A stretch of 46,773 nucleotides of DNA from Oscillospiraceae bacterium (GTDB lineage: Bacteria > Bacillota > Clostridia > Oscillospirales > Oscillospiraceae). Where the stretch lies: positions 1-46,773 of the forward strand of contig JAFTFT010000006.1 of assembly GCA_017458335.1 (NCBI GenBank), read 5' to 3'. How positions within the stretch are numbered: position 1 is the stretch's first letter; the number at the start of each line of letters is the position of its first letter. Of this stretch, positions 15,721 through 42,029 are shown one piece after another. A program made the position numbers and the translations under genes. The notes under the pieces are model-generated. The model saw nothing but the letters and a program-made list of their open reading frames with translations, had not been told where the DNA came from and made no database searches.

Positions 15721-17916
15721 ATGGAGACGGATCAGAACCGGCTGCGCCAGGATATTTCCCCGGCTGCGGCCTGGGCCTATGCCATCGGCACCAGCATCGG
15801 CTGGGGCTCTCTGGTGGTCACCTGCAACACCTATCTCGCTCAGGCGGGGATTCTCGGAAGCGTGATCGGAATGGTTCTGGGCGCCGCCGTCATGCTGATT
15901 ATCAGCCGGAACTATGCCTATATGATGCAGTGCTATCCGGAAGCCGGAGGCGCATATACCTTTGCCAAGGAGCAGTACGGGTATGACTATGGCTTCCTGA
16001 CGGCATGGTTTCTTTCCATGACCTATCTTGCGGTCCTCTGGGCAAACGCCACTTCTCTGCCGCTCTTTGCCCGGTATTTTGTGGGGGATATTTTCCGCTT
16101 CGGCAGGCTGTATTCGCTCTTCGGCTATGAGGTGTACCTCGGGGAGACGCTGCTTCCCATCGCGGCCGTGATTCTCACCGTGTTCTTTCTGACGAGGCAT
16201 AAAAAGGCCGCGGCACGGCTCATGGTGATCCTGGCGGCTGCCTTTGTACTCGGAATCGTTGTGGTGTTCGCCGGCGCCGTCCTCCGTCTGGACAGCTCGC
16301 TGGAGCCGGCCTATGTTCCGGAGAGCAGCGCGGTCTCGCAGATCATCAAAATTGCGGTCATTTCTCCCTGGGCCTTTATCGGCTTTGAGAATATCTCCCA
16401 TATGTCGGAGGAGTTTTCGTTCCGGCACAGCCGCTTTTTCCGTATTCTGGTCATCACGGTGATCTCCACTACGCTGCTTTATATCTTCATTTCGCTCCTT
16501 TCCGTCACGGCCTATCCGCCGGAGTACGCTTCCTGGCTGGACTATATGAGGGACATCGGGAAACTGGACGGACTCAAGGGGCTTCCGGCCTTCTATGCGG
16601 CGCAGCATTATATGGGCCGCTTCGGCGTGAGCATGCTGATGATTGCGCTGCTGGCGCTGATTGTCACCAGCCTGATCGGCAATACCACCGCGCTCAGCCG
16701 CCTCTTTTACGCGCTGGGAAAGGATCAGGTTCTGCCTGAAAAGTTCGCGGAACTGAATCGGCACGGCGCGCCGGGAAACGCGATCCTGCTGGTGGCGTGG
16801 CTCTCTCTGCCCGTCCCGTTTCTGGGGCGAACGGCAATCGGCTGGATTGTGGATATTACGACGGTCGGCGCGACCATCATTTACGCCCTCGTCTCGGCAA
16901 GCGCCCGGAAACTGGCAATCACCCGGAATGACCGGACGGAGAAGTGGACGGGTGCCCTCGGCTTTGTGGTCATGGCCTTCTTTCTGGCCTACGTTCTGCT
17001 TCCCAACCTGGTGGCGGAAAGCAACATGGCCAAGGAATCCTTTCTTCTATTTATCGTGTGGACGGTTCTCGGCTTTCTGTATTTCCGCAGCATCCTTCGG
17101 CGCGACCATGCCGCCCGCTTCGGCAAATCCCTGATTGTCTGGGTGGCGCTTCTGGCTCTGGTGCTGTTTATCGCCCTGATCTGGATGCGGCAGTCCATGG
17201 TGGATTCCAACCACCTGATGATGGAGAACATCAGCCGGTATTATCTTGCCTCACAGGACGGCCTCGCGGTTCGGATGGCGGACAGACAGTTCATTAATGA
17301 GCAGATGCGCAACCTCGAAAAAGCCGATACCCGCACCATCCTCATGGCGACAGGGATGTTTGCCTTCGCACTGGTCATCATGCTGAGCAACTACTCCTTC
17401 ATGAACAAACAGAAGGAGGAAATCGAGAAGCTTGCCAATACCGATTCCATGACCGGGGTCAGAAACAAGCACGCGTTCCTGATGACGGAACTGGAACTGG
17501 ACAACGCCATCCGCCGGAACACGGCGGCTGATTTTGCCGTGGTTGTCTGTGATGTCAACGGACTGAAATACATCAATGACAACTTCGGGCACAAGGCGGG
17601 CGATGAGTATATCCGCTCGGCCTGCGCGATAATCTGCGACCTGTTCAAACGCAGCCCGGTTTTCCGGACCGGCGGCGATGAATTTGTCATTGTGCTTCAG
17701 GGCCGTGATTATGAGAACCGGGAGAAGCTCATGGAGAACATGCGCCGGATTTCCGAGAGCCATGTCGGCACGGATCAGGCCGTCGTCTCATCGGGGATTT
17801 CGGATTATGTCCGCGGTTCCGATGAAAGCTGTCACGCTGTTTTTGAGAGAGCGGACAAGCTGATGTATGAAAACAAGCAGGCGCTCAAGCGCATGGGGGC
17901 CAGGTCGCGGTCGTGA
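15721..17916 (+). CDS. amino-acid-permease-like sensor fused to GGDEF domain
   Basis: A 731-residue membrane protein. Residues about 8-430 form an APC-superfamily permease module. Helix 1 carries AIGTSIGWGSL, matching the broken-helix binding motif, and helix 6 carries SPWAFIGFE. After it come a helix (about 465-485), an extracytoplasmic loop of about 60 residues, and another helix (about 540-560). A short linker leads to a GGDEF domain (about 570-725) with DSMTGVRNKHAF, CDVNGLKYINDNFGHKAGDE and an intact GGDEF at 651-655. The usual RxxD inhibitory site before GGDEF is absent. Domain content predicts a cyclic-di-GMP synthase gated by amino-acid binding or transport. The ATG at 15721 has GAAGGGAAG upstream. 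No clear promoter seen. It is a single-gene unit closed by a terminator and resembles the permease-kinase at 39210. Transport competence is unknown. Confidence 0.88.
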   Translation: METDQNRLRQDISPAAAWAYAIGTSIGWGSLVVTCNTYLAQAGILGSVIGMVLGAAVMLIISRNYAYMMQCYPEAGGAYTFAKEQYGYDYGFLTAWFLSMTYLAVLWANATSLPLFARYFVGDIFRFGRLYSLFGYEVYLGETLLPIAAVILTVFFLTRHKKAAARLMVILAAAFVLGIVVVFAGAVLRLDSSLEPAYVPESSAVSQIIKIAVISPWAFIGFENISHMSEEFSFRHSRFFRILVITVISTTLLYIFISLLSVTAYPPEYASWLDYMRDIGKLDGLKGLPAFYAAQHYMGRFGVSMLMIALLALIVTSLIGNTTALSRLFYALGKDQVLPEKFAELNRHGAPGNAILLVAWLSLPVPFLGRTAIGWIVDITTVGATIIYALVSASARKLAITRNDRTEKWTGALGFVVMAFFLAYVLLPNLVAESNMAKESFLLFIVWTVLGFLYFRSILRRDHAARFGKSLIVWVALLALVLFIALIWMRQSMVDSNHLMMENISRYYLASQDGLAVRMADRQFINEQMRNLEKADTRTILMATGMFAFALVIMLSNYSFMNKQKEEIEKLANTDSMTGVRNKHAFLMTELELDNAIRRNTAADFAVVVCDVNGLKYINDNFGHKAGDEYIRSACAIICDLFKRSPVFRTGGDEFVIVLQGRDYENREKLMENMRRISESHVGTDQAVVSSGISDYVRGSDESCHAVFERADKLMYENKQALKRMGARSRS

Positions 17917-17990
17917 GGCCGGGCGCCGGTACTTTGATCAGGTCCTGACGCGGCTGCGCCAGGGGTTCGCCCCGCCCGCGCGGGGAAGAA

Positions 17991-18024
17991 AAAACTGTCC
18001 CGGTCTCTGACCGGGACAGTTTTT
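17991..18024. terminator. bidirectional terminator
   Basis: AAAACTGTCCCGGTC pairs perfectly with GACCGGGACAGTTTT around a TCT loop, with A and T runs on each side. It serves the convergent permease-GGDEF and guaB genes. Confidence 0.9.
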
Positions 18025-18046
18025 GATCGGGGGAAACCCTTCGGGC

Positions 18047-19552
18047 TTACTTGAAGGAAGGGGTGGTGTCCTTCTGGATGACGTCGTGGGCGCCGCCTTC
18101 CACGATGCTCGTGGAGGAGACCAGCGTGAGCACGGCCTTTTCCTGCAGCTCGGGGATCGTCAGCGCGCCGCAGTTGCACATGGTGTGGCGCACCTTGCTC
18201 AGGGTCAGTGCGACGTTGTCCTTCAGGCTGCCGGCATAGGGAACGTAGGAATCGACGCCCTCTTCAAACGAGAGCTTCTTGTCGCCGCCCATGTCATAGC
18301 GCTGCCAGTTGCGGGCGCGTGCGGAGCCTTCGCCCCAGTATTCCTTATAATAAGTACCGCCGATGTTGACGCGGTTTGTGGGGCTCTCGTCGAAGCGGGC
18401 AAAGTATCTGCCCAGCATGACGAAGTCGGCGCCCATGGCGAGGGCGAGGGTGATGTGGTGGTCATAGACGATGCCGCCGTCGGAGCAGACGGGGACATAG
18501 ATCCCGGTCTCTTCATAGTAGCGGTCGCGCTCTGCGCAGACCTCAATGACGGCAGTGGCCTGGCCGCGGCCGATGCCCTTGGTTTCACGGGTGATGCAGA
18601 TGGAGCCGCCGCCGATGCCGACCTTGACAAAGTCCGCACCACAGTCGGCGAGAAAGCGGAAGCCGGCGGCGTCCACGACATTTCCGGCGCCGACCTTGAC
18701 GCTGTCTCCGTAGTGCTCCCGGATCCAGGCCAGGGTGAACTTCTGCCAGTCGGTATGCCCCTCGGAGGAGTCAATGCAGAGAACGTCCGCGCCGGCTTCG
18801 ATGAGGGCGGGGACGCGTGTGGCGTAGTCGCGGGTATTGATACCGGCGCCGACGACATAGCGCTTATGGGCGTCCAGCAGTTCGTTCGGGTTCTGCTTGT
18901 GCATGTCATAGTCCTTGCGGAATACGAAGTAGCAGAGGCGTCCGCTGTCGTCGATGATGGGGAGAGAGTTGAGCTTGTGCTCCCAGATGATGTCGTTGGC
19001 CTCTTTCAGGGTGGTGCCCTCTTTGGCCCAGACGAGCTTCTCAAACGGGGTCATAAACTCACGGACCTTCATCGAAGGCTCCATGCGGCTGACGCGATAG
19101 TCGCGGCTGGTAACGATGCCGATCAGCTTCCCGTCGGCGGTGCCGTCTTCGGTCACGGCGACGGTCGAGTGCCCGGTCTTTTCCTTGAGCGCCAGAATGT
19201 CGCTCAGGGTGGCGTCCGGACTGATGTTGGAATCACTGCGGACAAAGCCGGCCTTGTAGCTCTTGGCTCTGCGTACCATCGCGGCTTCGTCTTCTACCGT
19301 CTGCGAACCATAGATAAATGAAATACCGCCTTCCGTGGCGAGAGCGACTGCGAGCCGATCTCCGGAAACAGACTGCATGATCGCGGACACCATCGGAATA
19401 TTCATTGTGATGGCGGGCTCTTCTCCCTTGCGGAACTTCACAAGAGGAGTCTTCAGCGAAACATTCTCCGGGATGCACTTCGAGGAGGAATAGCCGGGGA
19501 TGAGCAGATACTCGTTAAAAGTATGAGCGGGTTCATTGATAATGGTCGCCAT
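18047..19552 (-). CDS. guaB: IMP dehydrogenase
   Basis: A 501-residue IMPDH, the NAD-dependent conversion of IMP to XMP that commits purine flux to GMP. The TIM barrel is interrupted by two CBS domains (about 95-210, with [20 protein letters not shown] and [10 protein letters not shown]). The catalytic cysteine lies in [21 protein letters not shown]-type sequence, and the GMP-binding [11 protein letters not shown] and the flap region follow. It starts from AAAGGAGAG at 8 bases and has its own strong promoter. No other purine gene is adjacent. Confidence 0.96.
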
Positions 19553-19572
19553 GAATTCTCTCCTTTCATATT

Positions 19573-19626
19573 ACGTCGAAAAAACGACATTTTGGTTATT
19601 ATAGGGAGCCGGGCGCCATTTGTCAA
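19573..19626 (-). promoter_or_regulatory. guaB promoter with small inverted repeat in the leader
   Basis: On the minus strand TTGACA (19626-19621), a 17-base spacer and TATAAT (19603-19598) form a consensus promoter. Just downstream, GTCG-TTTTTT-CGAC (19588-19575) forms a small inverted repeat that could be an operator or RNA hairpin before the ribosome site. Confidence 0.85.
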
Positions 19627-19702
19627 GCTTGGAAAGGCAGGGAAGAGACGCTTTTTTCAGCGCAATGACGCCTGTACATAAGTTTTTTACATTTTCCGGG
19701 AA

Positions 19703-19730
19703 AAACCTGATATAATAAACCTGATATAAT
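19703..19730 (+). promoter_or_regulatory. tandemly duplicated extended -10 promoter
   Basis: The 14-base word acctgatataataa occurs twice head to tail, giving two identical TGATATAAT extended -10 boxes (TATAAT at 19711 and 19725). TTTACA at 19686-19691 could act as -35 for the first at a 19-base spacing. It precedes the gene starting at 19803. Confidence 0.65.
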
Positions 19731-19802
19731 AATGAAATATGATCTGAAAAAACAGGCTCGGAAGACAGACGGCCGAAGGAAAACGGAGAGGAGGGACGCT
19801 GC

Positions 19803-22013
19803 TTGAAAACAACCGGATGGACAAGATTTCTGGCTCTGTGCCTTGCCGTTATCAGTCTCTCCATGCTGGTGTCCGGCGGACTCGGCATCCGGGCGGCGAA
19901 TAAGGAGCGGCGGAAAGACGAGTCCGAACTCCGGGACCTCCAAAGCCGGATTGACGAATACCGGGAAATCAGCGCCGCGCTGATGGACCGGGTTTCCTAT
20001 GAGGAACTGAACAAAACCCTGGAGGAAAAACAGAAGAAGTACGACACCGATACGGCGAAGCACCGCGCGGATCTGAGCACCTATACCGCGACAAACGGCG
20101 GCCTGGAAATGGGAACCGCCGCCCTCGACCAGGCGGAATCGGCGCTGGAAACCGGGAAGACGCAGATCGTGACCCTGAGAAAGGCACTTCGGAAGATGCT
20201 GAATATGCTTGAGCGGGTCACCGGATTGACCGGCGGCATCTCTTCGGGGCTGAGTACGGCGGAGGAGGTCATGTCCAAGATCCTGGAGATCCTCTCGGAT
20301 GACGGCGTCAGTGGAGGAAACAGCGGGTCCGTATTACGCCTGGAAAGCGCCGTTTCCGAATTGATTGATGCGCTTGAGAATTACAGCCCTCCTGCGGGTT
20401 CAGAACAGGCGGACGGGAACTCGTCCGGGGGCAATGGCGGAGCTGGATTCAATACGAATACAGGGGACGATGCTTCCAATAACAGTTCCGACGGCAGTGA
20501 AGAGCAGGAAAAGACCGGCGGCGAAGAGCAACTTGCGGAACCGGGTGACGGTCAGGAGAATCCCGTGACAGACCCGCCGGAAGACCCGGATACTGACCCG
20601 CCGGAAGACCCGCCGGAAGACCCGGATACAGACCCGCCGGAAGATCCTCCGGCAGACCCGCCGGAGGAGCCTGAGACAGACCCGGTGGAGGCCCCGCCGA
20701 GATCTCCCGAAACCGGGGAGACCGACTCCGGCGGGCAGAGAGTCCAAACGGCGCTGGACAATGTTGTGACGGAAATGAGGAAGCTCCTTGAGGATGCCGC
20801 AGTGATTCGCGGCAAAGCGGAGACTGTCGAAGTTCCGCCGAACATAATGGACGGTATTCTGCAGGCCGCGGAAGTGGGGAGCGCAGGGGAATTCATGTCA
20901 ATCATCAGGGAAGCGCTTCCCGGCGAAGACCCCGAGGCGGATGCCGAAACGCTTCAGCAAGTCTATGACATCCTTCAGACGATTGCCGCCATGGACGCGG
21001 GGAGTCAGCAGCTGGCAGACCGTATTCGGGAAGCGTCTGAACTGGCAGGAAACATTGAAGAGATCGGCGCTCTTGTGCGTGAAGCCATCAATCGGGTTCT
21101 GCTGGATGCTTTGACGGAAAATCCGGAATTTCCTTCCGGAAATGAGGAGTTCCTGAGACAGATCAAGGAAGCCTATGAAGCCAACAAAGGCGACATTCAA
21201 ATGATTCCGGAACTCCTTGAAGATGAGCGGGCAAGCGCTTACGAGGCTGTAAACAGCGCCTATGAGAAACTGACGGGACTGAACGGTCAGATCAGCGCGA
21301 TCACAAAAGCCCAATCCCAGCTCGCGGAGCAGCTTTCGGTTTTGCGGGAGACGGAAAAAGAGCTCGAAGAGGGCGAAGCGGCCCTGGCCGAGGGCCGGGC
21401 GCAGCTGGACGCGGCGAAGGACGAACAGAAGAAAAAGGCCGAAGAACTGGACAAAAAGAAGCGGGATCTGGATGCGCAGGAGAAGCTGCTTCAGCAGAGC
21501 GCGGAAGAGGCCGAGAAACAGAAAAAACTGGAGGAGCGAGAGAAAACGCTCAAATCGGCTCTCCTGTCCAGGGAAGAGATTCGACGCGGAAACCGGGACG
21601 GAATGGATCTCCTGACCGCGTCCGAGAAATGGCTGGAAGAGTATACGCGGCAGGCGGGAGAGAAGTATCGGGACCGGTTTGACGCCGGCGTGCTGATGAT
21701 GATCGGCGCGGTTCTGGCCATGGCCGGCGCACTGTTGAGTTTCGGAAAGAACGCCAATCCGTACTTCGCGCCGGTCGTGACGATCCTCTGCCTGGCCTTC
21801 TCCGGTTCCGCGGCATTCCTGCTCTACCGCATGGGGCGGGGGATCAGCTGGTCGGCCGCCGTGACGGCGCTGATCGCCGCGGCGGAACTGGTTTTGCTGA
21901 TTCCGTCGCTGCCCGTTTTCGGACAGGCGGCGGACCCGGGCGGGACGCGAAAGGCGCGAACGGGAAAAACCGGAACAAAATCAGCGGAAAACCCGGATGA
22001 AAAGAAGAAATAA
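19803..22013 (+). CDS. membrane-anchored coiled-coil protein with Pro/Asp/Glu-repeat spacer
   Basis: A 736-residue protein that I do not recognise. The only start with a good ribosome site (GGAGGG, 8 bases) is TTG at 19803. Residues about 6-26 are a signal anchor. A coiled coil spans about 35-150. An acidic Ser/Gly/Asn stretch leads into a PPEDPDTDPPEDPP-type repeat (about 255-300), then a helical region (about 310-490). A highly charged coiled coil at about 500-590 is rich in KKK and EEL. Three hydrophobic helices end the protein (about 625-650, 655-675, 680-705) with a basic tail. Probably the chain spans from a wall-exposed spacer to the membrane. The arrangement recalls Pip/YhgE-type envelope proteins with SAQ-like hairpins, but that is only a resemblance. 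It is separate from tig, which has its own promoter. Confidence 0.75.
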   Translation: MKTTGWTRFLALCLAVISLSMLVSGGLGIRAANKERRKDESELRDLQSRIDEYREISAALMDRVSYEELNKTLEEKQKKYDTDTAKHRADLSTYTATNGGLEMGTAALDQAESALETGKTQIVTLRKALRKMLNMLERVTGLTGGISSGLSTAEEVMSKILEILSDDGVSGGNSGSVLRLESAVSELIDALENYSPPAGSEQADGNSSGGNGGAGFNTNTGDDASNNSSDGSEEQEKTGGEEQLAEPGDGQENPVTDPPEDPDTDPPEDPPEDPDTDPPEDPPADPPEEPETDPVEAPPRSPETGETDSGGQRVQTALDNVVTEMRKLLEDAAVIRGKAETVEVPPNIMDGILQAAEVGSAGEFMSIIREALPGEDPEADAETLQQVYDILQTIAAMDAGSQQLADRIREASELAGNIEEIGALVREAINRVLLDALTENPEFPSGNEEFLRQIKEAYEANKGDIQMIPELLEDERASAYEAVNSAYEKLTGLNGQISAITKAQSQLAEQLSVLRETEKELEEGEAALAEGRAQLDAAKDEQKKKAEELDKKKRDLDAQEKLLQQSAEEAEKQKKLEEREKTLKSALLSREEIRRGNRDGMDLLTASEKWLEEYTRQAGEKYRDRFDAGVLMMIGAVLAMAGALLSFGKNANPYFAPVVTILCLAFSGSAAFLLYRMGRGISWSAAVTALIAAAELVLLIPSLPVFGQAADPGGTRKARTGKTGTKSAENPDEKKK

Positions 22014-22016
22014 TGA

Positions 22017-22045
22017 TTGATTTTATAAATGAAATCTGTTATGAT
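22017..22045 (+). promoter_or_regulatory. promoter of tig-clpP
   Basis: TTGATT, a 17-base spacer and TATGAT lie 35 bases before the trigger-factor start. Confidence 0.75.
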
Positions 22046-22079
22046 ACCGGAGCATGTGCAGATGAGGAGGAAAGATTCC

Positions 22080-23477
22080 ATGATTTTGAAAAACATCGAG
22101 AAGAAAGAGCACAATACTGCAGTATTTACAGTTGCCGCGGATTCGGCCGAATTTGAAAAGGCCGTCAACGGCGCTTATCTGAAGAACAAGAAGGATGTTT
22201 ATATTCCCGGCTTCCGCAAGGGCAAGGCCCCGCGTCAGGTGATTGAGGGCATGTACGGCAGGGAAGTCTTTTACCAGGACGCGATGGACGATCTGGCCCC
22301 CGAAGCCTTTTCCCTCGGCGTGAAGGAAGGGGAGCTTCGTGTGGTCGGCCAGCCCCGCATCTCCGACGTCAATGTGACGGAGGAAAAGGCCTGCGAGTTT
22401 ACTTTTGACGTGACCACCTATCCGGAAGTCGTCCTCGGCGACTACAAGGGCATCGAAGCCCTCCGCACGTCCGAGACGGTCTCGGACGAGACGGTCGATA
22501 ACGAGATTAAGAGTGTTCAGAAGCGCAATGCCCGTATGCTGACGGTCGAGCGCCCCGCCGAAATGGGCGACACCGTGAACATCGACTTTGAAGGCTTCCT
22601 CAACGGCGAGCCGTTTGACGGCGGCAAGGCGGAAGGCCATTCCCTCGAACTCGGCTCCAACTCCTTTGTCCCCGGCTTTGAGGAGCAGCTGGTCGGCATG
22701 AGCGCCGGCGAGGAGAAGGACATCGACATCACCTTCCCCGAGAACTATGCCGAGAATCTGGCCGGCAAGGCGGTGGTTTTCCACATCGTCTGCAACGAGG
22801 TCAGCGCTCCCGAGTATCCGGAGCTGGACGATGAGTTTGCCAAGGACGTCTCCGAGTTTGATACCTTTGAAGAATACAAGGCCGACGTGCGTGCGAATCT
22901 CCAGAAGCGCATGGACGACAGCGCCGAGACCGCGTTCAAGGATGAAGTGATCCGCAAGGCCTGTGAGAATATGACCGGCGAGATCCCCGAAGTGATGTTC
23001 GAGGAGAAGGTTGACGAGTTCCTGCGCAACTACGCCGCCCAGTTCGGCATGAACGACCGCGACATGACCCGCGAAGAGCTGCTCAAACTCTTCGGCATGA
23101 ACGAGGATTCCCTGAAGTTCTCCATCCGCCCGGCCGCCGAGGCCCAGGTGAAGACCGAGCTGCTTCTCGAGGCCGTCGCGAAGGCCGAGGGGCTGGAGCC
23201 GACGGAAGAGGAGCTCCAGGCCTATTATGAGAAGACCGCGAAAGACGTCGGCGCCACGGCGGACGATGTCAAGCGCTACTTCGGCGAGGACTTCCTGAAG
23301 AACGAGCTCAAGAAGGAGCAGGCCATGAACCTGATCGTCGGCAGCGCCGTCGCGAAGTCCGCGGATGAGATGGATCCGGAAGAGGCCGCGAAGGAAATGA
23401 AGGAAGAGTTTGCCGATGAGGTCGCCGGCGAAGCCGTCGCCGAAGCGGTGGAGCAGGCTGAGGAGAAGGCGGAATGA
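22080..23477 (+). CDS. tig: trigger factor
   Basis: A 465-residue ribosome-associated chaperone and peptidyl-prolyl isomerase. The ribosome-docking signature [11 protein letters not shown] lies in the N-terminal domain. The FKBP-type isomerase domain ([20 protein letters not shown] to HIVCNEV) follows, then the long helical C-terminal arms. The acidic tail ([10 protein letters not shown]) is typical. ATG 22080 has AGGAGG 9 bases upstream; an earlier in-frame start at 22029 would overlap the promoter. Its stop overlaps clpP by ATGA. Confidence 0.95.
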
Positions 23478-24055
23478 GTTTCATCCCCTATGTCGTGGAG
23501 CAGACCAGCCGTGGAGAGCGTTCTTATGATATCTTCTCCCGTCTGCTCAACGACAGGATCATCATGCTCTCGGAAGAAGTGAACGACACGACGGCAAGCC
23601 TCGTCGTGGCGCAGCTTCTTTTCCTCGAGGCCCAGGATCCGGACAAGGATATTCAGTTTTATATCAACAGCCCCGGCGGCAGTGTGAGCGCGGGTCTGGC
23701 CATCTACGATACCATGCGGTATGTGAAGCCGGACGTCTCCACCATCTGCATCGGAATGGCCGCCTCCATGGGAGCGTTTCTGCTCTCTTCCGGAGCAAAG
23801 GGCAAGCGCATCGCGCTCCCGAACAGCGAAATCATGATTCATCAGCCCTCCGGCGGCAGCCGGGGCCAGTGCACGGACATCCAGATCCAGGCGGAGCAGA
23901 TCCTGAAGATCAAGCAGCGCCTGAACGCGATCCTGGCGGAGAACACCGGCAAAACGGTGGAAGAGGTGGAACGCGACTGTGAGCGCGATCACTTCATGAC
24001 CGCCCAGGAAGCGCTGGAATACGGCATCATTGATCAGGTGATTACAAAGCGCTGA
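23474..24055 (+). CDS. clpP: ATP-dependent Clp protease proteolytic subunit
   Basis: A 193-residue serine peptidase that forms the tetradecameric barrel fed by ClpX. Catalytic Ser98 is in GMAASMGAF and His123 in MIHQPSGG, with the aspartate near the [10 protein letters not shown] helix. NSPGGSV and the hydrophobic-pocket regions are intact. It is coupled to tig by a 4-base overlap and followed by a strong hairpin, then clpX. Confidence 0.97.
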
Positions 24056-24060
24056 GTCAG

Positions 24061-24094
24061 AATATGGGGGAACACTTAGGTGCTCCCCCATATT
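24061..24094 (+). other. strong hairpin between clpP and clpX
   Basis: AATATGGGGGA pairs with TCCCCCATATT, and an inner CAC/GTG extends the stem. No T-run follows, so it may adjust the clpP:clpX transcript ratio by processing or partial termination. Confidence 0.6.
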
Positions 24095-24122
24095 GAGCTA
24101 TACTGCTTGAAGGAGAATTGGA

Positions 24123-25382
<1,260 letters not shown>

Positions 25383-25430
25383 GACAGGCGCTGCCCCGGA
25401 GCTCGCGGGCGGAGACCTGATTGAGGAAAG

Positions 25431-25481
25431 ACTTGGATATACAATGAACTTGGATATACAGTGAACTTGGATTGACAATGA
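25431..25481 (+). repeat. three tandem 17-bp repeats ending at the lon start
   Basis: ACTTGGATATACAATGA, ACTTGGATATACAGTGA and ACTTGGATTGACAATGA follow one another without gaps. Each unit carries ATG or GTG at the same place (25444, 25461, 25478), and the third is the lon ATG. The first two open tiny frames of six and four codons. No AGGAGG is placed for the lon start. Confidence 0.85.
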
Positions 25482-27883: not shown

Positions 27884-27884
27884 A

Positions 27885-28475: not shown

Positions 28476-28495
28476 AAAGCGGGGGGGGGACCGGC

Positions 28496-29215: not shown

Positions 29216-29301
29216 TCAAAAACAGCCCCGGAAATTCTGCGGTTTTTGACTTGTTTGGCAATTCACCCGAAAAAATTCACAAAAATCCGACGCATTTTCT
29301 A

Positions 29302-29330
29302 TTGAAAATTACTGATATTAGAGTTATTAT
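29302..29330 (+). promoter_or_regulatory. promoter of the CdaR-like regulator
   Basis: TTGAAA, a 17-base spacer and TATTAT lie in the A+T-rich 29216-29455 gap. The gap begins with an imperfect TCAAAAAC...GTTTTTGA hairpin that may end the upstream operon. I see no gene in it. Confidence 0.7.
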
Positions 29331-29455
29331 AGTGCTATGTGATTTTCTACGTGGTTTTTTTATAATCATTTTGCCCAAATGGGGGCTCGATTCCTCTGCA
29401 CGGTCTTGACCGACCGGATTTTCAGCCGGAAACAGGCGGAATGGAGAATGCGTTT

Positions 29456-30550: not shown

Positions 30551-30601
30551 CCTCTCTGTTCGGCCGGATCCCGGCGGAACCGAGTTTCTCGGAGGCAATT
30601 T

Positions 30602-32168: not shown

Positions 32169-32171
32169 GCA

Positions 32172-33467: not shown

Positions 33468-33554
33468 GCTCCTGTCGGCAGTATCGCCGGCGCTTCGGCG
33501 GCCTGAGCCGTCCGGAAGCGCTGGCGTATTTCAGTTTGGAAAAGGAGTGAGAGC

Positions 33555-34802
33555 ATGAGACGGATCTTCCACCACATGTTCGGCGGCGTGGGAATTTTCC
33601 TGCGGCGTCTGTTCAGTCTTGGAATTCCGCTGTGGTTTGTCCTGCTGATGGTGCTGGGCTCGCTCTTTGCCACGCGGATCATCACCCGCAACCAGGTGGT
33701 CCGGGAGGTCGGCGGAGCGGAGGACTTCGACGAGGCCATGCGCTACATCGAAATCAAGGACATCATTGACGAAAAGTTCATCGAACCTGTCGACCGCAAG
33801 AGCATGGGCTATTCCGCGGCCATCGCGATGGTCTCGGGCCTCGGCGATTCCTGGAGCAGCTTCCTGACCGATGATGAATACAAAACCTACCAGCTCTCGT
33901 CATCGAACGAATACGCCGACATCGGTATGAGCCTGGTCAAGGATTCCAGCGGCGGCTTCCAGGTGGTTACGGTCTACCCCGATTCCCCGGCGGCCCGCTC
34001 GGGCGTTGTGATCGGCATGCTGATCACCGCGGTGGACGGCCAGAGGGTCACGGAGTATTCCACCGATGAAGTCCGGACCCTGATTCGCTCAAAAATGAAC
34101 GGGAAGTTCAATCTCAGCGTCGTCGGCATGACCGACCCGCTGGAGATTGACGCGACCAATGTCAATTCCGAGGCCATCACCTACCGTCTGGAGAAGACGG
34201 GGGCCGGCTATGTCCAGATCCACAACTTTGAAGCGGGCAGCGGGCAGGCCGCGGTCGACGCGGTCGAGTACCTTCTGAGCCAGGGGGCGGTCTCTCTGGT
34301 CGTCGACGTGCGTGACAATTCCGGCGGCCTCACCACCGAAGCCGCGATCTTCCTAGACTACCTGCTTCCGTCGGGGCGGCTGTTTTCGGATATCAGCAAG
34401 GACGGCACCGAGCGTGTCACAGAATCCGACAGCATGAGTCTGGAACTGCCCATGGTGGTGCTCATCAACGCCGGCAGCTTCCGCGAGTCCGAGCTCTTTG
34501 CCCAGGTCCTGAAGGATTACCGCTGGGCAACCCTGATCGGCGAGCCCACCACCGGAAACACGCGAACCCAGGAAGTCATCGTCCTGAACGACGGAAGCGC
34601 CCTGCGCCTGAGTACGCACAGTCTGCTGTCCGCCAGCGGGATCGACATCGCCGCCGCGGGCGGCGTCGTACCCGATATGATCGTCTTCAACCGCAACGCC
34701 GCGGCCACCGGCACGACCGAGGGTACGGTCGGCGGGGAAGAGGGCACGGCGAGCGTGTCGGATGATACACAGCTGATGGAAGCACTCAGATTCCTGAGCT
34801 GA
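33555..34802 (+). CDS. S41-family C-terminal-processing peptidase homologue, catalytic Lys replaced
   Basis: A 415-residue CtpA/CtpB-like membrane-anchored protein. An N-terminal helix is at about 20-40, a PDZ domain at about 115-200, and the S41 core at about 210-390. The serine region INAGSFRESELFAQVLKDY keeps the Ser position of the SASASEI motif in relatives. The next motif, usually GE(x)TFGKGxVQ, reads GEPTTGNTRTQ: the catalytic lysine is Asn (codon AAC), while the Gln is kept. It may be an inactive scaffold or use altered chemistry. The position after the ftsEX-M23 genes suggests a role in regulating wall hydrolysis, by analogy with Ctp proteases that degrade hydrolases. Start has AAGGAG. 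Confidence 0.85.
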   Translation: MRRIFHHMFGGVGIFLRRLFSLGIPLWFVLLMVLGSLFATRIITRNQVVREVGGAEDFDEAMRYIEIKDIIDEKFIEPVDRKSMGYSAAIAMVSGLGDSWSSFLTDDEYKTYQLSSSNEYADIGMSLVKDSSGGFQVVTVYPDSPAARSGVVIGMLITAVDGQRVTEYSTDEVRTLIRSKMNGKFNLSVVGMTDPLEIDATNVNSEAITYRLEKTGAGYVQIHNFEAGSGQAAVDAVEYLLSQGAVSLVVDVRDNSGGLTTEAAIFLDYLLPSGRLFSDISKDGTERVTESDSMSLELPMVVLINAGSFRESELFAQVLKDYRWATLIGEPTTGNTRTQEVIVLNDGSALRLSTHSLLSASGIDIAAAGGVVPDMIVFNRNAAATGTTEGTVGGEEGTASVSDDTQLMEALRFLS

Positions 34803-34827
34803 ACAATCTTTTGAGGAGAGAAGAAAC

Positions 34828-35322
34828 ATGGCCAGTTCAAATTCCAATCGTTACAAAATGAGCCAGGAACGCCTGGAAGAGCTCAAGAAAGAGCTCAACT
34901 ACATGGAGACCGTCCGCGAAAAAGAGGTCTCCGAGCAGATCAAGGAAGCCAGAAGCTTCGGCGACCTGTCCGAGAACAGCGAGTACGATGAGGCGAAGAC
35001 CGAGCAGGGCAAGCTCTACTCCCGCATTGCCGAGTACAAGGACCTGATCGAGCACGCCGAAATCGTGGACAACGTGGACCACAATCTCCCGAAGGATGCC
35101 GTGACCCTGGGCAGCATTGTCATGGTGAAGGATCTGGACGAAGACTTTGAGGATAAGTATGAGATCGTCGGCTCCCAGGAGGCCAACCCCCGCGAGGGGC
35201 GGATTTCCGACGATTCTCCGGTCGGCAAGGGCCTGATCGGCCACCGTGCCGGCGATACCGTGACGATTCCGGTTCCCGCGGGCGAGATCCGGATTGAAGT
35301 GATCTCGGTCGAGAATCCGTAA
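34828..35322 (+). CDS. greA: transcription elongation factor GreA
   Basis: A 164-residue GreA: an N-terminal coiled coil that enters the RNA polymerase secondary channel, with the acidic tip in FGDLSENSEYDEAK, and a C-terminal FKBP-like domain (GLIGHRAGDTVTIPVPAGEI). It rescues backtracked polymerase by stimulating transcript cleavage. GAGGAG precedes the start. The greA-lysS pairing is frequent in clostridia. Confidence 0.96.
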   Translation: MASSNSNRYKMSQERLEELKKELNYMETVREKEVSEQIKEARSFGDLSENSEYDEAKTEQGKLYSRIAEYKDLIEHAEIVDNVDHNLPKDAVTLGSIVMVKDLDEDFEDKYEIVGSQEANPREGRISDDSPVGKGLIGHRAGDTVTIPVPAGEIRIEVISVENP

Positions 35323-35331
35323 GGAGAGCCC

Positions 35332-36849
35332 ATGGAAGAAGTAAAAGAAAGCACCCTGCCCCGGGGCTCCGAGGCGCAGGCTTCCGAACCGCAGGTGTCC
35401 GAACTTCTGCAGATCCGCCGTGACAAGCTGGCCGAGCTTCAAGCGGCTGGCCGCGACCCCTTCCGCGAGACCCGCTTTGACCGGGACGCGACCTCCGCCG
35501 GCATCAAAAACGCCTTTGACGAGTATGAGAACCGGCAGGTCTCCGTCGCCGGGCGCATCATGTCCAAGCGCGGCATGGGCAAGGCCATCTTCTGCCACAT
35601 CCAGGACCGCGAGGGCCAGATTCAGCTCTACATCCGCAAGGACGCCGTCAGCGAGACCGAGTTTGTCGACTTCCGGAAGTACGACGTCGGCGACATTATC
35701 GGTGTGCGCGGCTATGTCTTCAAGACCCAGACCGGCGAGATCACCGTCCATGTCGAGCACGTCACCCTTCTGACCAAGTCCCTCCGCCCCCTGCCGGAGA
35801 AGTACCACGGCATGACCAACACGGACCTGCGCTATCGCCAGCGCTACACCGACCTGATCATGAACGCCGAGGTGCGCGAGACCTTCATCCGCCGCTCCCG
35901 CATCATCTCCAGCATCCGCCGGTATCTCGACGCTCAGGGCTTCCTCGAGGTGGAGACCCCCATGCTGGTTCAGAACGCCGGCGGCGCCGCGGCGCGTCCC
36001 TTCCTGACCCACTTCAACGCCCTGGACCAGGATCTCAAGCTGCGCATCTCCCTGGAGCTGTATCTGAAGCGCCTGATCGTCGGCGGCCTGGAGAAGGTCT
36101 ATGAGATCGGCCGCGTCTTCCGCAACGAGGGCATGGACACGAAGCACAACCCCGAATTCACCCTGATGGAGCTGTACCAGGCCTATACCGACTTCCACGG
36201 CATGATGGACCTGACCGAGAACCTCTACCGCCACGTGGCGCAGGAGGTCCTGGGCACCACCGTCGTCACCTACAACGGGACCGAGATCGACCTCGGCAAG
36301 CCCTTTGCGCGCATCACCATGACCGACGCGGTGAAACAGTACAGCGGCGTGGACTTTCATGAGATCCATACCCTGGAAGAGGCGCGGGCTGCCGCGAAAG
36401 CGAAGGGGATCGAATATGAAGAGCGCCACCAGAAGGGCGATATCCTGAACCTGTTCTTCGACGCCTTTGTGGAAGAGCATCTGATCCAGCCCACCTTCCT
36501 GACCGAGCACCCTGTGGAGATCTCTCCGCTGACCAAGCGGAAACCGGATGACCCCGAGCATGTCGAGCGCTTTGAGCTCTTCATCAACGGCTGGGAGATG
36601 GCCAACGCCTACTCCGAGCTGAACGACCCTATCGACCAGCGCGAGCGCTTCCGTCATCAGGAGGAGCAGCTGGCCAAAGGCGACGAAGAGGCCAACACCA
36701 CGGACGAGGACTTCCTCAACGCCCTGGAGATCGGCATGCCGCCCACGGGCGGAATCGGCTACGGCATCGACCGCCTGTGCATGCTTCTGACCGACAGCCC
36801 GGCCATCCGCGACGTCCTGCTCTTCCCGACAATGAAGCCACTTGACTAA
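35332..36849 (+). CDS. lysS: lysyl-tRNA synthetase, class II
   Basis: A 505-residue enzyme. The N-terminal OB-fold anticodon domain ([18 protein letters not shown]) is followed by class II motif 1 (around FLEVETPML), motif 2 ([15 protein letters not shown]) and motif 3 ([12 protein letters not shown]). AAGGAG lies 5 bases before the ATG, and it is 9 bases from greA. It is the last clearly core gene before the composite accessory region begins a few bases after its stop. Confidence 0.96.
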
Positions 36850-36911
36850 AAAAGCCCGTAAAATCAAGGTTTTTACTCAGAAAAGCTTACGACTTACGAC
36901 ATTTTTACGAC
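36850..36911. repeat. possible integration-site region with three TTACGAC repeats
   Basis: Directly after lysS is a stretch aagcccgtaaaatcaaggttttt that resembles attachment-site cores I recall from clostridial integrative elements. TTACGAC follows three times (36887-36893, 36894-36900, 36905-36911), the third 11 bases from the second. Such spacing suits integrase arm sites. Site function is inferred; the repeats are plain in the sequence. Confidence 0.4.
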
Positions 36912-36955
36912 AGTCGGAAGAGGACATGCAAAGGGTTATAAGCATTTATAACGCA

Positions 36956-36989
36956 AGAGGCGTGGTAGACAATGAGCTATCACGCCTCT
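36956..36989. repeat. 13-bp inverted repeat in the gene-free gap
   Basis: AGAGGCGTGGTAG pairs with CTATCACGCCTCT with a single G-T pair around an 8-base loop, without a T-run on either strand. The gap 36850-37187 holds no gene that I can support. It is A+T-rich and also contains TTGTATGT/ACATACAA at 37098-37129 around CCTTAAGG. Confidence 0.6.
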
Positions 36990-37161
36990 AAACATGCCTA
37001 AAATGCGCTAGAATTGCTTCAAACAGGTCTGACGATATCTTGCCTGCCAGAACGATTTGAAATCAGCACAGAGGCGATTACAATGAATTCACGCTATTTG
37101 TATGTAGTGTTACCTTAAGGCACATACAAGGTATGGCATGTTTTTATTAAGAGAGAAAGTT

Positions 37162-37186
37162 AAAGCACCCAATTACGGGTGCTTTT
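37162..37186 (-). terminator. terminator after the DUF6262 gene
   Basis: AAAGCACCC pairs with GGGTGCTTT around AATTAC, two bases beyond the stop of the minus-strand gene, with a T-rich tail on that strand. It could also act on plus-strand transcripts. Confidence 0.7.
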
Positions 37187-37187
37187 C

Positions 37188-37733
37188 TCATTCAAGTGAA
37201 TTAAGAGGACTTTCTGCTCTGACTCGGAAGAAGCCGTTTTCGTCTACTTCTTTACCGCCTAACTTATACATGGTTCCGACATAGCGGAATTTGTGGTCTC
37301 TTATTCCCCTTAACCTCTCATTGATAAACTCAGTCAGAATAACTTCTTCTCTCTGATAAGTCGTAATCCGTTCTTTCAGTAAAGACACGTATTTAGCTTC
37401 CAGAACGGCTTTTTCTTTCTCAAGCTCGTTGATATCAAGAAGAAGTCTTTCGCTCTTGGTGAGCTTTGTAGCAGCTCTCGGCTTTACTTTGGATTTAGCC
37501 TTGATATACTCTAATATCTCATCGTGCTTATAGATGAAAGACGTAGAGCAGCCCACACCTAAAGCGACCCGCTTGACTGTGACAGGAGCACCAGCCTTAA
37601 CACAAGAGTCCACAAACGCTTTGCAGCGGCCTATGAGCTCTTCGCTGTTTCTCTTATTTGCTTTTGTTAAAACACGAACCGATGCAGGACGAGAGTCTTC
37701 TTTTTCGTCATCATCAATTCTTCCATCGACCAT
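37188..37733 (-). CDS. DUF6262/TnpC-like transposon accessory protein
   Basis: A 181-residue protein. The central APVTVKRVALGVGCSTSFIYKHDEILEYI pattern (an HTH with SxSFIYKN/H-type helix) and a long coiled coil (about 90-150, SERLLLDINELEKEKAVLEAKY) match DUF6262 proteins, the TnpC partners of Tn554-type tyrosine-recombinase transposons. TnpC guides orientation and efficiency of integration in Tn554. Here the partner recombinase upstream is truncated, so the gene is probably an orphan. The start lacks a good ribosome site; the frame is open 54 bases further upstream, suggesting it was once coupled to the recombinase gene. It is A+T-richer than the core genes. Confidence 0.65.
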   Translation of the reverse strand: MVDGRIDDDEKEDSRPASVRVLTKANKRNSEELIGRCKAFVDSCVKAGAPVTVKRVALGVGCSTSFIYKHDEILEYIKAKSKVKPRAATKLTKSERLLLDINELEKEKAVLEAKYVSLLKERITTYQREEVILTEFINERLRGIRDHKFRYVGTMYKLGGKEVDENGFFRVRAESPLNSLE

Positions 37734-37752
37734 GGCCTTGGCGATAACTTCC

Positions 37753-38000
37753 TCATAGGAGAGGTCTATCTCCTTCCAAGTCTAGATAGTATTGTCCGTC
37801 ATCAGATTTCTTCAGGGCTTCGGATTTTAAGTAGGCTAATTCACTAAACCTCATACCAAGCATTAAGAGTATATAAACCATCTTTCTGTATGGATTATTC
37901 ATCTTTGGAAGCACCGATACAATGCCATCAACTTCTTCTGTTGTTAGTGCACGATTTTTATTGTAGTACTTATAGCAGATATCGCTGCTTAGTATGGTGT
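37753..38000 (-). pseudogene. truncated tyrosine recombinase fragment
   Basis: On the minus strand, ALTTEEVDGIVSVLPKMNNPYRKMVYILLMLGMRFSELAYLKSEAL is a recognisable piece of a tyrosine recombinase core containing the first active-site box with its arginine (GMRFSEL). The HxxRH box and catalytic tyrosine are missing: the frame stops soon after YYLDLEG. Upstream, similarity ends at about 38000, where plus-strand ParB-like sequence begins. The gene is broken at both sides. Confidence 0.7.
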
Positions 38001-38976
38001 GCTGACCCCGGCGATTGCAAGACCGGATCCGGATGGAGGGTATGAAATCATTTCCGGACACCGGCGGATGCGGGCCTGTGAGCTTGCAGGAATCAAGACG
38101 CTGCCGGTGATCGTGCGGGATATGGACGACGATACCGCCATTATTTTCATGGTGGACGCCAATCTTCAGCGAGAGCATATCCTTCCCAGTGAGCGGGCAT
38201 TTGCGTACCGGATGAAGCTGGAGGCAATGAAGCACCAAGCTGGGAGACCGTCAAAAGAAAATTATTCCCAAGTTGGGAATAATTCCGGGAAAACATCAAG
38301 TCAGGAAAGGTCATATACACCGCAGCAGATGCAGGACGTTATCGTAAAGCTCCTGGATCAGTGGCAGAAGAAACGAAACAGAGATCAGTCAAGATATGCT
38401 GCCTATATGAAATACAGGCATTATCGGTCTGAAAGAAAAACCGTGAAGGAGCAGAAAAAGGCACAGAAGGCAAAGGAAAAGTCAGAGATTCACGGCAAGC
38501 AGAGCGTGAAGGATCTGGTCGGTCAGAACCAGGGCGTTTCCAACATGGAAATCGCCAAGACTGACCTGAAGGGCTTTGAGCGGGTGACCCGGAAGTACGG
38601 TGTGGACTATGCGATCCGGAAGGACCCTTCACAGGATCCGCCAAGGTATATCGTCTTCTTCAAGGCGAGGGATGCGGATGCGCTGACAGCCGCCTTTATC
38701 ACAAAAGAGCTTCTTTCAATTCTTGGTCATCAGAAGGACTATCACTGCCTGATAGACTACGGCTCAAAGGCAATCCGGCTCGAACCGGGGCTCCAGGATG
38801 CATATTACTGGGTTATTATCGCTGCCGAAAATATAGGCAACAGCGCGACGCGTGAGAGATGCCTTGCCACGGCCAGGCAGGAACTGACGGATGAAGAATA
38901 CGAAAAGCTGACACACATGCTGAACGCATCCAAAGTGGTGGATACGGCTATTTTGGCAGGTCAGTCGCAGGGATAA
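37999..38976 (+). pseudogene. chimeric frame: ParB fragment + PcfB/DUF3801 + BTAD fragment
   Basis: An uninterrupted 325-codon frame from a GTG, with three unrelated parts. Residues 1-102 are a ParB-like nuclease fragment lacking its beginning (GYEIISGHRRMRACELAGIK, NLQREHILPSERAFAYRMK), cut before the ParB helix-turn-helix. Residues about 103-233 match the mating-pore-associated PcfB/DUF3801 family of conjugative elements (VSNMEIAKTDLKGFERV, RKYGVDYAIRKDP, PPRYIVFFKARDADAL). Residues about 234-306 look like the end of a BTAD helical-repeat regulator (DYHCLIDYGSKAIRLEPG, LTDEEYEKLTHML). All joints are in frame. It is most simply a deletion scar, although a made protein cannot be excluded. No ribosome site precedes the GTG. 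Confidence 0.65.
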
Positions 38977-39050
38977 CATGATAGTGCAGGAGTGGTTACC
39001 GCACAATGCAGCAGCCGCTCTTGCTTTATCATGTATTGCCGGCATAAACA

Positions 39051-39112
39051 GAAACCACAATCGAGGCGGTTGTTTTTGCAGTAACCTGCATAAGCAGCCG
39101 TCTCTTTTTTGC
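39051..39112 (+). terminator. terminator, first copy of a repeated hairpin
   Basis: GAGGCGGTTGTTTTTGCAG pairs with CTGCATAAGCAGCCGTCTC, and a six-T run follows at 39105-39110. The sequence, including the leading AACCACAATCG, recurs almost identically at 46697-46757. Within the 38977-39209 gap there is also an ACATGATA/TATCATGT inverted repeat (38976-39034). Confidence 0.8.
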
Positions 39113-39141
39113 GTTTTTGGATCAGCTATATGCGATACGGA

Positions 39142-39179
39142 TTGACTAAATATAGACGATAATGTAAAATAATAGACGA
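39142..39179 (+). promoter_or_regulatory. promoter of the sensory cassette with a direct repeat
   Basis: TTGACT, a 17-base spacer and TAAAAT (39165-39170). ATAGACGA occurs at 39152-39159 and 39172-39179, exactly 20 bases apart, on both sides of the -10 box. This is the arrangement expected for an activator or repressor dimer. Confidence 0.7.
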
Positions 39180-39209
39180 AATGCTCTTTGATTAACCGGA
39201 GGAATATAC

Positions 39210-42029
39210 ATGGACGAACACAAGCCACAAACCTTAAAGCCGTTGGATCGCTATCTGTCTGTTATTGATGTCTGGGCGATGGCTTTTGGCTGCATGGTCG
39301 GCTGGGGCGTATTTGCGATGCCCGGAACGACGTTCCTCCCGGTCGCCGGTCCACTGGGCACGGTATGTTCCATGCTGATCGGTACGGTTATCATGCTGAT
39401 CATCGCCGGCAACCTGTCTTATATGATGGGCCGTTCATCGGTGACAGGCGGGATATATGCCTATACCAAAGAAGCCTTCGGAAGGGATCATGCCTTTTTG
39501 AGCTCCTGGTTTTTATGTCTTTCCTATCTGACTATCGTTTTTCTTAACGGCACAGCATTGTTCTTTATCGTCCGGACTCTGTTCTCCGATGCGGCGCAAA
39601 GCGGTGCTTATTACACCATCTCCGGACATAACATTTATCTTGGCGAGACTCTGGTGTCTGTTCTGGTACTTGCGGGTACAGGTATTCTTTTTGTTGCGGC
39701 AAAGCCTGCGCTCCAGCGGATCCATACGGTACTTTCTTTGATTCTTTTCGCCGGGATCATTGTGACGGCAGCGTTCTGTGTGCCGCATGTTTTTGCGGGC
39801 GGGGAACCGCAGCCCTTTGGAACATCCGGGGTCAACAGCGGCTATGCGGTGTTCAGCCTGGTGATCCTGGCTCCATGGGCCTTTGTGGGTTTTGAAGTAA
39901 CGGCATTCGATACGGCACATTTCAAGTTTCCGGTCCGAAATTCAAAAAAGGTTCTTTTCCTTGCCATCCTGGCTGCAGCGGCAGCGTATATTTCCATGAC
40001 ATTTGTCAGTATCGCTTCTGTTCCGGATGGATTTTTGTCATGGCAAGAGTACATTGGCAGTCTGGAAAATATGAAGGGCGTGGCATCTGTGCCGACCTTT
40101 TATGCAGCGAAATCCATCATGGGACCGGCAGGACTGGTCATCATGACACTGACGGCGGTTGCATCTATCCTTACAGGCATCATTGGAGGGTACCGGGCCA
40201 CGACCCGTGTCCTTTCAACGATGGCGGAGGATCGTATCCTTTCTGAGAGGTTCTCAAAAACGACCTACAGTATCGTGTTTATTATGGTGCTGTCCATCCT
40301 GCTTTCTTTGCTCGGCAGAAATACGCTGAACTGGTTTGTGGATCTTACATCCTTTGGCGCGATCGTCGGTTTCGGATATTCTTCGGCCGCAGCCTGGAAG
40401 CTGGCACGGGCTGAAGGAAACAAAAAAACGACTGTAACGGGGATGATCGGGACGATCCTGTCTGCAGTCTTTGTCATTGTTCAGCTTGTTCCACGCCTGA
40501 CGGCTAGGGAGGCGATGGGCAGCGAGGCTTTCCTGCTTCTTTCTCTCTGGTGCCTTCTTGGCTTTGTGTTCTACTGGAGGACTGTCGTCAGGAGTACGCT
40601 CACGGAATACAGCGGCATATCCACATCGGGCATTGTTCTGTTTGCCCTGCTGGTCTATTCCGCACTCATGTGGATGGCAAAGCTGCTTATCGCCGGAGAA
40701 AACGCAGACCAGATGAAGCAGGCTCTTTCCCGGGGCGGCCTCATCCTTATTGCAATCATATTCGTGGGCCTTGCTGTGATGCTGTATGTGCAGAATGTCG
40801 TCCGTACGAAACACGAAGCGGCCGAACGGGAAAAGATCCATGCGGTGGAAAGCAGCCTTGCCAAGAGCCGGTTCCTGTTTAATATGTCGCATGATATCCG
40901 CACCCCGATGAACGCGATCATCGGATATATCAATCTGGCACGAAAGGAATCGGATCCTGCGAAGATCCGCGGATATCTTGATAAGATCGACGGTTCCAGC
41001 CAGCACCTGCTCGCGCTGATCAATGACATTCTTGAAATGAGCCGTATCGAAAACGGTAAGATCGAATTGGAGTACGCGCCGCTGGATCTGGGTGTTGTGT
41101 TTGAGGAAATCAGGAGCCTGTTTTCAGAACAGATGAAACAGAAGCATCTGGACTTCCAGGTTCACACGGAGCAGGTGCAGAACCGCTATGTATGGTGCGA
41201 TAAAAACAGCCTGAACCGTGTGCTCCTTAACATCATAAGCAACGCATACAAATTTACGCCGGATGGAGGCACGATCACGGTTTCTCTTCTGGAAACAGGC
41301 AACGGAGAAAAAGGTTACGGCTCCTATGAGATCCGTGTGCAGGATAACGGTATCGGCATGTCCAAAGAGTTTGCTGAAAAGATGTTCATCGCTTTTGAAA
41401 GGGAGCGGACCTCCACGGAAAGCGGAATGGAGGGAACCGGCCTTGGCATGTCGATCACAAAGAGCCTTGTCGATCTGATGGGCGGTGTGATTGACGTCCT
41501 GACGGCACCCGGTTCCGGTACAACGATGATCATCCGTATCAAATTCAAACTGGCGGAAGAAAAAGATGTTCACAGTCCGGGAGGCAAAAGCAGTGATGAG
41601 GCTGATGTCGGAACGGAGGCAGGTCCTGAAATGGATTTTACCGGCCGGCGGCTTCTTCTTGCAGAGGATAATGCGATCAATATGGAGATCGCAGTTATGA
41701 TCCTGTCGCAGGCAGGCTTTACGGTGGAGACAGCAGAAAACGGGAAAGAAGCGCTGGATATGGTCGCATCCTCAAGCCCGGGCTATTATGACGCCATTTT
41801 AATGGATATACAGATGCCTGTCATGGATGGATATGAGGCTGCGAGGGCAATACGCGCTTTAGATAACCCGGAGCTGGCAGAGATCCCGATCATAGCGATG
41901 ACAGCAAACGCATTCAAAGAAGATGAACAGGCGGCAGAGCAGGCGGGCATGCAGGGACATATTGCAAAGCCGATCGACCTGCAGAAAATGATGGAGACGA
42001 TCCGCACAGTGATTCAAAGAAAAGGGTGA
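39210..42029 (+). CDS. amino-acid-permease-like hybrid histidine kinase
   Basis: A 939-residue membrane protein. Residues about 12-430 form an APC permease module: helix 1 has [15 protein letters not shown] and helix 6 has APWAFVGFE. Two more helices (about 475-495 and 510-530) flank a short outer loop. Then come a linker, HisKA ([14 protein letters not shown], His561), HATPase_c ([28 protein letters not shown]) and a receiver with phospho-acceptor Asp866 in [12 protein letters not shown]. No HPt or DNA-binding domain is present. Start has GGAGG 7 bases upstream. It probably senses an amino acid through a transporter-like fold, comparable in principle to CbrA (SLC5-type transporter with kinase) and yeast Ssy1. 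Whether it transports is open. It is first in a cassette with the XRE and SBP-kinase genes. Confidence 0.9.

Follow-up and report, generated by a model that had tools for sequence, protein, structure and literature searches.

APC-type permease modules as apparent membrane sensors with kinase and cyclic di-GMP outputs in gut bacteria

Why should two proteins encoded on one contig share a permease-like membrane module and end in different signalling domains? The question is raised by a 46,773-nucleotide stretch of an Oscillospiraceae bacterium (assembly GCA_017458335.1, contig JAFTFT010000006.1, positions 1 to 46,773 of the forward strand; hereafter the window), in which the proteins P0001 and P0002 each begin with an APC permease module. 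An original prediction, made from the window alone, held that one amino-acid-sensing input had been reused for cyclic di-GMP (c-di-GMP) and phosphorelay signalling. The present analysis indicates that gut bacteria appear to have converted a permease of an amino-acid-transporter family into a membrane sensor wired to several signalling enzymes, and we consider it probable that P0001 and P0002 are transporter-derived receptors whose input was fused once and whose outputs were later replaced. The features of the two proteins are as follows, with residues of the transporter GkApcT given for comparison.

15721..17916, + strand: P0001, 731 aa, APC permease module, two extra membrane helices and GGDEF
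15721..17115, + strand: P0001 APC (SLC7-like, LeuT-fold) input module, about residues 1-465
15799..15807, + strand: P0001 GWG, residues 27-29, helix 1, W28 aligned to GkApcT Thr43
15985..15987, + strand: P0001 Asp89, ahead of helix 3
16366..16389, + strand: P0001 PWAFIGFE, residues 216-223, helix 6, W217 aligned to GkApcT Phe231 and E223 to Asp237
17128..17436, + strand: P0001 added unit, helix 470-510, outer turn, helix 517-572 towards GGDEF (AlphaFold model, profile test)
17434..17883, + strand: P0001 GGDEF domain, intact GGDEF motif at residues 651-655 (17671-17685)
39210..42029, + strand: P0002, 939 aa, APC permease module, two extra membrane helices and HisKA-HATPase-REC
39255..40577, + strand: P0002 APC input module, GWG at 39300-39308, PWAFVGFE at 39873-39896
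40632..40790, + strand: P0002 two extra membrane helices, residues ~475-493 and 509-527, short outer loop (hydropathy, weak profile match)
40860..41546, + strand: P0002 HisKA and HATPase_c, phospho-acceptor His 561
41655..42005, + strand: P0002 receiver domain, acceptor Asp 866

Each of the two genes is an open reading frame at the coordinates given, and both proteins match the Pfam family AA_permease_2 well above its cut-off of 27 bits, P0001 at residues 17-449 (109 bits) and P0002 at residues 16-428 (78 bits). When the two membrane parts were aligned, as the original prediction had suggested, they proved 31% identical across 494 aa (E 1e-76), and the motifs it had named, GWG, (S/A)PWAF(I/V)GFE, P(A/T)FYAA and (V/I)YLGETL, were all found in the pair. 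P0001 has a GGDEF match over cut-off at 572-721 (86 bits) with an intact motif, and is thus a predicted diguanylate cyclase. P0002 has matches over cut-off to HisKA (551-616), HATPase_c (664-779) and Response_reg (816-932); its motifs SHDIRTP at 560, NAYKFT, DNGIGM and GTGLGM, together with ILMDIQMP at 863 in the receiver, supply the phospho-acceptor His, ATP-binding boxes and receiver Asp of a putative hybrid histidine kinase. A homologous APC module with the two outputs originally claimed is therefore present, and it is distinct from the SLC5-based input of CbrA, since SSF/SLC5 is not among the Pfam matches of either protein up to E 1. The structure model of P0001 resembles AdiC/ApcT-type transporters over residues ~5-469, so that its input has a predicted LeuT-type transporter fold, and two further helices lead into the GGDEF domain (pLDDT of this added unit 58-88 per ten residues).

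The family extends further, and has more kinds of output, than originally recognised. A species-level scan with P0001 (one genome per species) returned 308 stretches encoding relatives, of which the best 80 were kept for analysis. All 80 loci join APC and GGDEF within a single frame (45-76% identity), so the fusion is real, and an assembly error is ruled out as its source. According to their record titles these loci belong to Bacillota (72), Chloroflexota (4), Actinomycetota (3) and Spirochaetota (1). The genome names include 32 RUG (which we take to mean rumen uncultured genome), 22 RGIG, 2 RUI, 16 SRR and 4 UBA; the RGIG titles name animal gut sites, mostly of ruminants, three titles among the 80 name rumen, deer or sheep, and one isolate is Lachnospiraceae AD3010. 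Occurrence across whole genomes is patchy. A model of the APC module (A1), run on evenly drawn whole genomes with the source genome counted each time, matched 21 of 295 genomes of the order at 1e-60 (15 high-scoring at >540 bits and six distant near 265 bits), and at 1e-110 matched 10 of 398 genomes of the phylum and 10 of 391 of the class. A tblastn search of plasmids with P0002 gave 17 records, none covering 80% of the query, and the 10 records listed align to the kinase part only.

A census of 153 distinct APC frames from the fetched loci, based on local domain comparison, assigned 80 to GGDEF, nine to GGDEF-REC-(GGDEF)-EAL and 29 to kinase outputs (two of them fragments), with a further 26 high-scoring frames lacking any query domain and nine distant frames. 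Pfam confirmed the GGDEF-REC-EAL and histidine kinase (HK)-REC-REC layouts in examples. Two of the 26 frames end in an HD_5 domain, which we read from its sequence as HD-GYP type; another of the 26, L096, is 313 aa long and comes from a short contig. The domain search that had been proposed as a check thus extends the input to kinases, composite GGDEF-EAL proteins and HD/GYP-type outputs. In nine of the 80 loci further APC sensors lie within the fetched stretch (L016, a fragment, L018, L026, L039, L052, L064, L088, L090 and L093), and L064 (2628-12645) encodes three consecutive APC sensors with HK-REC-REC, GGDEF-REC-EAL and GGDEF outputs. The kinases of G386/G714 are divergent, the one scanned with Pfam having no HisKA and a sub-threshold HATPase, and these tandem genes adjoin a CheB-like gene. 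Tandem APC proteins with divergent kinase outputs and a CheB-like neighbour occur at L183 (6504-12519) and L184 (393-6601), possibly a chemotaxis-linked variant.

Phylogenetic analysis of the APC cores, with output parts excluded (86 cores, 461 columns), recovered the 60 sampled sensors together as a clade (100/100; present in 100% of 200 bootstraps) and, likewise at 100/100, a clade of the 33 sampled rows with c-di-GMP outputs. From these two clades it follows that the input was fused once and the output replaced later, a conclusion that is well supported for the sampled sensors. In a quick outgroup-rooted tree (short hits, L102, L103, L157, L172, L189 and L203 omitted; 22 of 80 GGDEF rows) permeases without an output domain (output-less relatives) are basal, and the kinases form a grade that gives rise to the c-di-GMP group. 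Among the bootstraps cited above, a kinase clade is present in 0%. The sensors are thereby related to transporters both by APC homology and by the branching of their clade from output-less permeases. A kinase-first order, favoured by tree and bootstraps, is likely but not proven. A single clade of EAL proteins was rejected by the approximately unbiased (AU) test (p 0.00014), so EAL was gained at least twice; one HD/GYP clade was not rejected (p 0.205).

Residue counts over 61 sensors, 20 output-less relatives and 9 outgroup APC proteins separate sensors from permeases at several positions. Asp occupies position 89 in 60 of the 61 sensors, the remaining one having a gap there, and in none of the output-less relatives or outgroup proteins. 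At position 223, which corresponds to GkApcT Asp237, 58/61 sensors have Glu and 19/20 output-less relatives have Asp, while position 107 is Trp (55/61) or Phe (6/61) in sensors and Pro in 17/20 output-less relatives; further sensor-specific changes fall at positions 93, 108 and 335. W217 is conserved in all 61 sensors and W28 in 59 (two gaps). Passages of PMC5803215 describe Thr43 and Phe231 of GkApcT as closing the site towards the outside, and replacement of Asp237 by Ala as abolishing transport. These shifts suggest that the transport cycle changed as the receptor arose. Asp89 lies between helices 2 and 3, which given the usual topology would be on the inner face, where it could contact the linker. 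The sensors lack an acidic residue at the position aligned with GkApcT Glu115 and a Lys at that of Lys191, and so do the output-less relatives. As a sensor-specific signature GWG was rejected: its middle Trp, at the Thr43 position, also occurs in 16/20 output-less relatives and 7/9 outgroup proteins.

The original prediction also gave both proteins the same added helix, outer loop and helix. A profile of the added unit built from GGDEF proteins, and run on 27 kinase tails and 262 decoys, matches 15 of the 27 tails at E ≤1.2e-10, so that the shared unit holds for these kinases; for the window pair it is not clearly borne out, as set out below. No Pfam domain was reported in the linker between transporter and kinase, and no STAC-specific profile was used.

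Homology, the predicted fold of the P0001 input, intact catalytic motifs, the single origin of the sensor clade and output replacement are the directly supported parts of our explanation. In its full form, a permease of one APC (SLC7-like) lineage would have gained an output in a single fusion, with a hybrid histidine kinase as the likeliest first partner; the input module would then have spread and diversified, and c-di-GMP enzymes would later have taken the place of that output (GGDEF, with at least two separate additions of EAL, and an HD/GYP-type domain). A small external solute would bind in the LeuT-type pocket between helices 1 and 6, and closure of these helices would move helix 12 and the added helix pair. 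Helix 517-572 of P0001 is modelled as one long helix running from the outside through the membrane towards GGDEF, and its movement may shift the state of an output dimer. P0001 would then make c-di-GMP, and P0002 would autophosphorylate and hand the phosphate to its own receiver, with transport by the receptor module presumably reduced or lost.

Several observations weigh against this explanation. The P0002 added unit reached only E 0.0069 with the profile, against 0.015 for the best decoy, so that its homology is not demonstrable, and its outer loop is much shorter than that of the GGDEF-protein unit. A profile including the end of helix 12 scored more favourably (P0002 E 3.1e-6; all 27 kinases E ≤5.6e-5), but these scores were discounted because the end of helix 12 is permease core. 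Glu at the Asp237 position also occurs in 2/9 outgroup proteins, and the change is no proof of transport loss. The AU test left a kinase clade unrejected (p 0.081; 0.088 with an earlier row set) and, with the earlier row set, also a single clade of all output-less permeases (p 0.073). The early tree was built from 27 of 79 GGDEF rows, without the short hits L096, L105 and L016, and the tests with p 0.088 and 0.073 additionally omitted L102, L103 and L172. Finally, no PilZ match was found in the source genome, which is 84% complete. In this genome GGDEF exceeds its cut-off at 11 places (13 matches), and four EAL are present; a search for c-di-GMP-I riboswitches gave no match in it, the control likewise being without a match anywhere.

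The APC module might instead still transport, with turnover rather than binding setting the output, as may be the case in CbrA. The APC fold and the conserved residues of helices 1, 6 and 8 are largely retained in the sensors, and passages of PMC13022988 and PMC7918813 describe CbrA as binding and importing histidine while bearing a kinase; the sensor-specific changes at positions 223, 107, 89, 93, 108 and 335, at or near transport-critical sites, nevertheless make such true transceptors unlikely. That the module senses no solute at all, and is a membrane anchor, a platform for a partner such as a separate permease, or a sensor of membrane state, would fit the neighbourhoods of the sensors, in which 13 marker queries found no recurring metabolic gene in the fetched loci, the single cases being L019, with PhnS2/PhnU2-like ABC genes, and L020, with a cytidylyltransferase-like gene. 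We regard it as quite improbable, as an anchor would have no need of W28, N109 and W217, which are invariant in 46/46 aligned GGDEF proteins from four phyla per record title.

A further version narrows the ligand to beta/omega-amino compounds, of the taurine, beta-alanine, 2-aminoethylphosphonate, ethanolamine or choline type, to the exclusion of alpha-amino acids. Among 17 output-less loci with flanks, five (L110, L111, L130, L132 and L182) have, within the stretch fetched, an HTH-nucleotidyltransferase gene that we read as LicC-like from its Pfam NTP_transferase and HTH matches and a LicD family gene close by in L110, where the top matches of ABC genes are 2-aminoethylphosphonate models below cut-off. 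L186 encodes a sulfoacetaldehyde acetyltransferase (TIGR03457, 772 bits, cut-off 676) together with an aminotransferase of class III; an aminotransferase is accompanied by a methylmalonate-semialdehyde dehydrogenase in L190 (TIGR01722, over cut-off) and by an alanine dehydrogenase in L187. The Trp at the Thr43 position, common to sensors and most output-less permeases, also agrees with such ligands, but it is frequent in the outgroup too and need not exclude alpha-amino acids, because Thr43 contacts the carboxylate via its backbone (passages of PMC5803215). Lysine 5,6-aminomutase at L207 and alanine dehydrogenase at L216/L217 fit alpha-amino acids too, L189 has an aldehyde dehydrogenase, and L131, L179 (with an amino-acid adenylation protein), L180, L181 and L188 give no clear clue; moreover, permease and sensor ligands may differ. 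The exclusive version is accordingly a tentative one. The amino-acid ligand of the original prediction becomes one option among several, since output-less relatives adjoin taurine, beta-alanine-type, lysine and LicC-like genes, although its single homologous input with two outputs stands. The ligand is probably a small amine or an amino acid. The best fit is with small amines, beta/omega-amino acids among them, and alpha-amino acids would also be compatible. Equally speculative is the proposal that a beta/omega-amino permease lineage became a non-transporting receptor once and was re-plumbed into kinase, c-di-GMP-making and c-di-GMP-degrading outputs, with a conversion traceable to a few residues (chiefly 89, 107, 108 and 223) and the added helix pair; gut bacteria would then own a set of nutrient receptors built on the APC fold.

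Two of the output-less loci have further features. L110 (6810-16152) places an output-less GWG permease near LicD, HTH-nucleotidyltransferase and ABC genes, one ABC permease being fused to a nucleotidyltransferase-like domain. At L186 (4756-11709) a tandem pair of output-less GWG permeases, candidate taurine permeases, is flanked by the two enzyme genes named above.

Downstream of P0002 the window encodes two further genes.

42033..42332, + strand: HTH_3-type gene, 99 aa, beginning 4 nt after P0002
42349..46026, + strand: second hybrid kinase, 1225 aa, two SBP_bac_3 stretches, HisKA-HATPase and two receivers

The SBP_bac_3 hybrid kinase begins 17 nt after the HTH gene, and the three genes likely form one operon. 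Such kinases accompany APC frames in four places, the window, L118 (APC frame cut by the contig end), L183 and L222. Just upstream of P0002 (37188-38976) lie a DUF6262 gene and a ParB_N plus DUF3801 gene, which look like mobile-element remnants. A third APC sensor of the source genome, a 932-aa APC-kinase on contig 23, is flanked by a PAS hybrid kinase and a PAS-GGDEF gene (L112, 664-8591).

A full-text search of open-licence papers found no published description of an APC permease joined to GGDEF or kinase outputs among the matches listed, in line with the original prediction, which knew of no described system with this input. The yeast APC-family permeases Ssy1 and Gap1 serve as amino-acid sensors; these eukaryotic proteins differ in that they are not known to carry a fused enzyme output, and the proposed parallel with Ssy1 stands as an analogy only. 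CbrA/CrbS are alike in that a single polypeptide couples an entire LeuT-fold transporter domain, as input, to a histidine kinase, but they combine SLC5 (13 helices) with STAC and PAS, in contrast to SLC7/APC and two helices here, and PMC7918813, on CbrA, contains no mention of GGDEF or diguanylate. In Ks-Amt5 a transporter fold has likewise been recruited as a kinase receptor, with an Amt rather than an APC module; passages of PMC5764959 describe it as binding but not translocating ammonium. In the S-component/5TMR transceptors, too, one fold serves transporters as well as sensor kinases, and the outputs are of several kinds, but this is the ECF S-component fold, discovered via structure predictions, according to passages of PMC11109136 that describe earlier membrane transceptors as few and exclusively eukaryotic. 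GkApcT, ApcT and AdiC are transporters without output, in which GkApcT Thr43 and AdiC Ser26 stand in place of the Trp found here, and GkApcT Asp237 in place of the Glu of most sensors.

Our best reading is that the family is a further case of a transporter-derived sensor, alongside CbrA and Ks-Amt5. Bacterial transporter-derived receptors are known from few folds (SLC5, Amt and S-component), and because this family is large, traceable by sequence and accompanied by close output-less relatives, the passage from transporter to receptor can be tested by residue and output swaps. For rumen and gut Bacillota the family supplies a candidate route by which nutrients feed into c-di-GMP signalling, and it might serve as a biosensor chassis.
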